Assembly: GCA_031763025.1 (NCBI GenBank)
Contig: JASSKH010000016.1
Span: 5,146,001 to 5,210,000, forward strand
Direction of reading: 5' to 3'
DNA length: 64,000 nucleotides
Source: Macrocystis pyrifera
Lineage: Eukaryota > Sar > Phaeophyceae > Laminariales > Laminariaceae
In this document: positions 32,734 to 62,706 of the stretch, piece after piece
Layout: each line of letters starts with the position of its first letter
Numbering within the stretch: the first letter of the stretch is position 1
The notes under the pieces: model-generated
Told to the model about the DNA's origin: nothing
Database searches by the model: none
What the model saw: the letters and a program-made list of their open reading frames with translations, nothing else
Translations under genes and position numbers: made by a program

Positions 32734-32922
32734 TCACATGATGGAACACACGTCCCTGTTTCGGGTTCGGAAGGAGTCGCCATCCAACGTTCTAGCGGAA
32801 CGAGAGGTCTTCTTGGACTTCATCCACACCTCCGGCTTAACGTTGTCTACGGCGACGGCGAACGAATCCTCCTCGTCCCCCTCGACGGAGTCCATTCCTA
32901 CTTCCGAGGCCACCAAATTGAT
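32734..32922 (-). CDS. Coiled-coil gene, exon 13 (C-terminus)
   Basis: 62 codons and TGA after a TTCTTCTGCAG acceptor. It includes [20 protein letters not shown] and [14 protein letters not shown], an acidic then basic tail ending CSIM. The polypyrimidine acceptor is among the best in the window. Confidence 0.8.
   Translation of the reverse strand: MNLVASEVGMDSVEGDEEDSFAVAVDNVKPEVWMKSKKTSRSARTLDGDSFRTRNRDVCSIM

Positions 32923-62706: not shown

Follow-up and report, generated by a model that had tools for sequence, protein, structure and literature searches.

Charged single alpha-helix (SAH) segments act as spacers, as in the INCENP coil (see also the available portion of PMC5812594). Proteins that combine an EF-hand with a coil also exist, and one isoform without a Rab domain is mentioned in the accessible part of PMC8303950. 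The CaaX box CSIM is that of prelamin A; according to the sections available of PMC11152559, it was modified fully by human FTase and partly by GGTase-I in yeast, and CENPE, CENPF and Spindly are named there as CaaX proteins. As of 2016, two ochrophyte lamins were known; an excerpt of PMC5630835 calls them the most divergent and describes lamins lacking the lamin tail domain (LTD) as hard to find.

The locus considered here lies in a 64,000-nucleotide stretch of DNA ("the window") of the giant kelp Macrocystis pyrifera (GenBank assembly GCA_031763025.1, contig JASSKH010000016.1, positions 5,146,001 to 5,210,000 of the forward strand). It very probably carries a real multi-exon minus-strand gene at 62706-32734, as judged from its letters, whose predicted product has a helical head, a long charged helix and a C-terminal CaaX box. 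The cell skeleton of the brown-algal lineage is poorly known. To our knowledge, the nuclear envelope proteins of brown algae are poorly known as well.

Gene structure

The gene was followed on the minus strand from the ATG at 62706 to the stop codon at 32734 through 12 open coding pieces, which were chosen by eye and carry usable splice signals. The pieces, together with a repeat in the last intron, are as follows (a slash marks the exon border of a donor):

62706-62625, minus strand: piece 1, with ATG, donor CCTG/GTGAGA and GC3 of 0.74; first helix of the EF-hand-like head
53220-53060, minus strand: piece 2, in phase with piece 1; remainder of the helix-loop-helix head, KADSL motif
49665-49621, minus strand: piece 3, short linker
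49095-48928, minus strand: piece 4, R-x-D-S-L-x-x-L repeat, twice
47400-47225, minus strand: piece 5, linker with RRRS site; codon score of -0.4 in its own frame
46684 to about 46508, minus strand: piece 6, RADSLTAL repeat and RRAS site; in phase with piece 5, 3' boundary approximate
about 46492 to 46409, minus strand: piece 7, donor TTG/GTGAGA; 5' boundary approximate, frame different from that of piece 6
45975-45895, minus strand: piece 8, basic NLS-like stretch (by eye); acceptor CTCTGTCGTCAG
42710-42657, minus strand: piece 9, open piece with codon-score support
41889-40918, minus strand: piece 10 (rod), Pro-free Ala/Glu/Arg helix of 324 residues with a unit of about 47 residues twice at its N-terminal end
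35095-34997, minus strand: piece 11, first part of the tail; single copy
32922-32734, minus strand: piece 12, last exon, with C-terminus VCSIM, CaaX box and stop codon TGA; pyrimidine-rich acceptor TTCTTCTGCAG; single copy
32967-33789, no strand assigned: dispersed repeat of about 823 bases in the last intron, non-coding for the gene, ending 44 bases before piece 12

Head (pieces 1-4), rod and tail comprise 152, 324 and 95 residues, respectively, and the whole protein at most about 766. Ten of the 11 joins are plainly in frame: a Glu codon is split at join 1/2 and an Arg codon at join 5/6, and the others are in phase 0, join 6/7 excepted. The frame changes between pieces 6 and 7, and 54 in-phase GT-AG splices with introns of 20-215 bases are possible between them, so that a matching phase is weak evidence for a join; the pyrimidine fraction of the corresponding acceptors was 0.06-0.59, and none was strongly pyrimidine-rich. 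This join, at about 46.5 kb, would be a short intron or, alternatively, a one-base assembly error in the G-rich run between the two pieces. The acceptor of the rod piece is poor and devoid of a pyrimidine tract; its donor is either of the GC type (GAG/GCAAGG, which gives 324 residues) or an in-phase GT at least 23 codons further on. On either side the rod is joined through weak splice signals and phase, so that different transcripts could carry head, rod and tail. The sole in-frame Met of the rod open frame is residue 295 of piece 10, so piece 10 is not a first exon and needs exons upstream.

The initial annotation had given thirteen exons and 796 codons without exon coordinates, with good splice sites and exact phase at every junction. 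Start, stop, open pieces with splice signals and the lengths of head, rod and tail were recovered; the exon and codon totals were not, and phase and splice quality held apart from join 6/7 and from the rod with its poor acceptor and possible GC donor. The central proposal, a single large orphan gene whose parts follow one another in an unusual order, is supported.

A second acceptor at 33872, followed by IDTVAS..., resembles piece 12 locally over 40 bases (score 35; 100 shuffles gave 25 at most). It was rejected as an exon: the similarity is mostly pyrimidine tract, and the frame enters A-runs and a stop codon. The region was taken to be either a partial duplication or a chance likeness.

The giant kelp genome was obtained from PacBio reads by Canu assembly and Racon polishing and contains 25,919 annotated genes, as stated in the part available of PMC10498591. 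The locus may already have a predicted gene in the published annotation.

Coding potential

GC3 was 0.67-0.83 in all 12 pieces, and a leave-one-out codon model preferred the called frame over the other two in 12/12, piece 5 with its score of only -0.4 included. For each of the 11 testable pieces, 0.1-3.7% of stop-free intron windows of the same length reached its codon score, a comparison that is biased by eye-picked pieces and overlapping windows and is to be read as support, not as a probability. In an exon scan, the model of which was trained on the same pieces and is therefore circular, nine of the ten best minus-strand segments touched called pieces, the tenth being a GA repeat. The best plus-strand control scored 14.1, and a GT donor at 40846 was preferred for the rod. 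Pieces 4, 8 and 9 were absent among the 28 segments listed, for which splice-site scores are probably to blame. The recurrence of [RK]xDSL and the strict CaaX ending, both described below, depend less on the eye-picking of pieces than the codon scores do.

Repeats and neighbouring open frames

At least 53 genome matches besides the window were found for the repeat of about 823 bases (each piece counted by itself, with 40 of the 3590 candidates scored and limits drawn from seven loci), mostly 86-90% identical. Another copy is located at about 7112-7930, and some genome loci carry several copies side by side. The element is probably a non-autonomous DNA transposon, its ends being inverted-repeat-like by eye. 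The gene had been described as hidden under repeat sequence, which holds in part only, namely for this element within the last intron.

Elements of about 105-115 bases occur in both orientations at 34866-34972, 44860-44926, 49885-49999, 57953-58067, 58720-58834 and 59539-59652, as short inverted repeats within the introns; the family has GGGGGACCATAGT-like ends by eye and is MITE-like. A unit of about 250 bases is present twice in intron 1 (56690-56944 and 56942-57188, 98-99% identical), a recent tandem duplication. Outside the gene, a minus-strand open frame at 8009-8614 matches DUF547 (E 0.00024, 21.5 bits, below the cut-off of 27) and probably belongs, as an exon, to a neighbouring gene; a plus-strand open frame at 12314-12709 has a sub-cut-off match to PPPDE peptidase (E 0.0032, 17.8 bits) and may be an exon of a gene on that strand.

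Head and linker

Helix spacing in residues 11-85 is as in an EF-hand pair, and AF2, run on piece 2 alone (53 residues, one sequence), predicted helices at 11-20, 27-42 and 48-52 (mean pLDDT 71.7). Searches of the head (residues 1-152) against Pfam at E<=5 gave no EF-hand match, the loop residues differ by eye from acidic EF-hand ligands, and structure searches returned nothing trustworthy. The head is thus EF-hand-like in spacing only.

The motif K/R-x-D-S-L has six six-frame matches in the window, four of which fall in coding pieces: 2, 4 (twice) and 6. Motifs were counted over the 342 residues ahead of the rod, with pieces 6 and 7 taken whole, against shuffles that ignore composition shifts along the protein: [RK]xDSL occurs 4 times (shuffle mean 0.02, reached by 0/2000), R-x-x-[ST] 8 times, RRRS and RRAS included (mean 2.94, 8 reached by 11/2000), and SP/TP 6 times (mean 4.02, reached by 391/2000), the last not in excess. 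The R-x-x-[ST] sites in the linker are presumably of the basophilic kinase class. SPPESP precedes the rod, as does the basic NLS-like stretch of piece 8 (both by eye).

These motifs bear on the reading that two or three adjacent genes were misjoined, namely one for head and linker, one for the rod and a small one for the CaaX end, which is rather unlikely. It would account for the unusual splice borders of piece 10 (weak acceptor, GC donor), for the 5.8-kb gap ahead of piece 11 and for the join at 46.5 kb, where a clear splice is lacking. Against it, the K/RxDSL motif spans pieces 2, 4 and 6 and thereby ties the 5' pieces together, in agreement with the annotated continuity between exons 4 and 5, where a break had been named as a possible refutation. 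The sole Met of the piece 11 frame lies about 60 codons upstream and that of the rod at residue 295; with Mets this sparse, each frame probably needs 5' exons. An exon scan between rod and tail furthermore gave only GA simple-repeat and low-scoring segments.

Rod

The rod consists of 30% Ala, 22% Glu and 13% Arg, and no Pro occurs in its 324 residues. At i+4, 30 acid-to-base and 29 base-to-acid pairs were counted against shuffle values of 15.0 and 14.9, each reached by 0/2000 shuffles; opposite charges thus number 59 (z 6.4) and like charges 5 (z -5.7). Controls were run with the same script on three stretches of two proteins with approximate limits: the long helix of TolA gave 42 opposite (z 5.4) and 4 like charges (z -4.7), and the MukB arms gave z 0.9/0.4 for opposite and z -0.7/2.2 for like charges. 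The hydrophobic fraction was 15% in the rod, 26-28% in the MukB arms and 4% in TolA.

The hydrophobic heptad bias of the rod was not above that of shuffles (76-85 of 100 of them did as well as its best register), and z was 0.1 and -0.3 at hydrophobic lags 7 and 11. The combined hydrophobic-lag score was z 1.4 for the rod, z 1.2 for the N arm of MukB and z 3.7 for its C arm; because this hydrophobic-seam test misses one of two real MukB coils, the case for a single helix is based on the charges. Residues 1-110 retain some hydrophobic pattern (z 2.3) and contain the 47-residue pair (score 92, 0/2000 shuffles, 23/58 identical). Internal repeats over the whole rod were no better than in 200 shuffles (best 114, mean 98, maximum 159), and the top period of the spectral test, 3.38, fell between the 95% level and the maximum of the shuffles. 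AF2, run on the single rod sequence, predicted helices at 3-186 and 193-323 (mean pLDDT 83.4, pTM 0.25).

The rod is probably a charged single alpha-helix, to judge by its charges. A coiled coil, which had been annotated over the same 324 residues, is doubtful; the length stands, and a coil may be present above all in residues 1-110, but the charges are arranged as in a single charged helix. The first 110 or so residues, with their two 47-residue units and hydrophobic score of 2.3, are where a dimer contact would be likeliest.

C-terminal end

The 95-residue tail ends in RDVCSIM directly before the stop codon, with the CaaX box at 32736. Six-frame open-frame ends of at least 30 codons in the window gave a strict CaaX ending once in 1427 (the gene's own) and a loose one in 8 of 1427. 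The simplest reading of the last Cys is as a CaaX prenylation site, a feature overlooked when the region was first described as a Trp/Cys tail. Prenyltransferase alpha repeats (PF01239) were found on three contigs of the kelp genome; five of the seven matches were above the cut-off, and 0/14 controls were above it.

Copy number and relatives

The assembly used to search the kelp's own genome comprises 223 contigs and 537,376,219 bases. The rod is single copy: among 55 scored candidates, its own locus was the sole match at E<=0.001; the tail matched its two exons, with the next match at E 7.5 and 29% (5 candidates). Relatives were sought in Pfam, NCBIfam, PDB sequences and prokaryote and virus collections, a set without algal proteomes, so that absence from it says little about algae. 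Pfam at E<=5 gave no family for head, rod or tail, and no Filament, LTD, Ras-type or Rab match. The rod had no match among PDB sequences at E<=10, head and tail had chance matches only, and NCBIfam gave three chance rows (E 0.05-0.07). Among the matches rejected as chance were nitrogenase iron protein (E 0.013-1.8), methanol dehydrogenase (E about 1) and YodL (E 0.18). DNA-level searches of viral contigs with piece 12, piece 2 and the head, and of prokaryote genome contigs with the tail, gave no confirmed relative. The literature matches listed, with subscription papers and supplements outside the scope, included no report of a brown-algal lamina or a comparable protein. As far as the searched collections reach, the predicted protein appears to be an orphan.

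Proposed function and alternatives

The best explanation, held tentatively and at slightly less than an even chance, is a phosphorylation-regulated, lipid-anchored peripheral membrane rod that serves as a spacer or scaffold. The CSIM box at its end would be farnesylated (or geranylgeranylated) and would tether the protein to a membrane. The charged helix of about 324 residues, if it stands as a single chain, would form a stiff spacer of about 48 nm (0.15 nm per residue), with a possible hinge near residues 187-192. The N-terminal helix pair and the R-x-x-S linker would form the outer end, held off the membrane by the rod, and basophilic kinases, acting on the motifs found in excess there, may switch outer-end binding. 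Four C-terminal residues can thus give a lead on a gene that is otherwise unrecognisable.

Besides the misjoined genes considered above, a nuclear lamina protein, either divergent or equivalent in function, that would sit at the inner nuclear membrane is conceivable but improbable. The CSIM box, the long helical rod, proline-directed sites, and the basic NLS-like stretch and SPPESP ahead of the rod (by eye) speak for this role, which is made attractive by the failure to find a lamin tail domain in the genome and by the description of ochrophyte lamins as very divergent. The search for that domain (PF00932, six frames, E<=1) treated exons singly, so that splitting could hide one, and its controls, all from prokaryotes, gave a match in 4/14. 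On the other side, Pfam gave neither Filament nor LTD up to E 5, and the rod found no PDB sequence; SP/TP sites did not exceed shuffles, the NLS-like stretch precedes the rod rather than following it, and a tail of 95 residues is shorter than the LTD (109 positions). Because the lamin sequence tests failed, a lamina role is kept as a bold reading only. A location at the nuclear rim would bear on lamin replacement in brown algae; the specific form of that idea, a brown-algal lamin substitute in the shape of a farnesylated non-coiled-coil lamina or membrane-skeleton protein independent of lamins, NMCP/CRWN and NUP-1, is given very little credence.

A calcium-sensing EF-hand scaffold of large-Rab or CRACR2A-short architecture (EF-hand, coil, lipidated end) is likewise improbable. 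The helix spacing of residues 11-85 and the helix-loop-helix predicted for piece 2 would suit it, but Pfam gave no EF-hand or Ras-type match and the loop ligands are not acidic by eye. The EF-hand-like head of the initial annotation accordingly survives as a matter of spacing, and the calcium link that had been drawn from it is unsupported.

That there is no functional gene, only decayed or chance open pieces, would fit the failure to find homologues, the one ambiguous join and the eye-picked pieces, but is very unlikely in view of GC3, codon scores, motif recurrence, the CaaX box and 324 stop-free codons with strict charge patterning.

Comparison with known systems

The lipid-anchored rod preferred here shares with the large Rabs (Rab44, Rab45/RASEF and Rab46/CRACR2A), as these are presented in the available text of PMC8303950, the order of helix-loop-helix head, long helix and lipidated end; it differs in having no Rab domain or EF-hand match in Pfam. 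With nuclear lamins it has in common a long helix, an NLS-like stretch and a CSIM end as in prelamin A, and it differs from them by the missing Filament/LTD match and by a long N-terminal part ahead of the rod. CENPE, CENPF and Spindly have coils, and paralemmin is another farnesylated long-helix protein; a long helix and a CaaX end are common to such proteins and the kelp protein, and a sequence relation is not detectable. In SAH (ER/K) spacers such as INCENP, and in TolA domain II, which was used as a control, the helix is likewise charged and Pro-free, with opposite charges at i+4. The kelp rod stands apart from SAH spacers in being very Ala-rich, 324 residues long and coupled to a CaaX end, and the likeness is one of charge pattern only. 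If the preferred reading is right, a lipid-anchored charged-helix rod would join the known long spacers.
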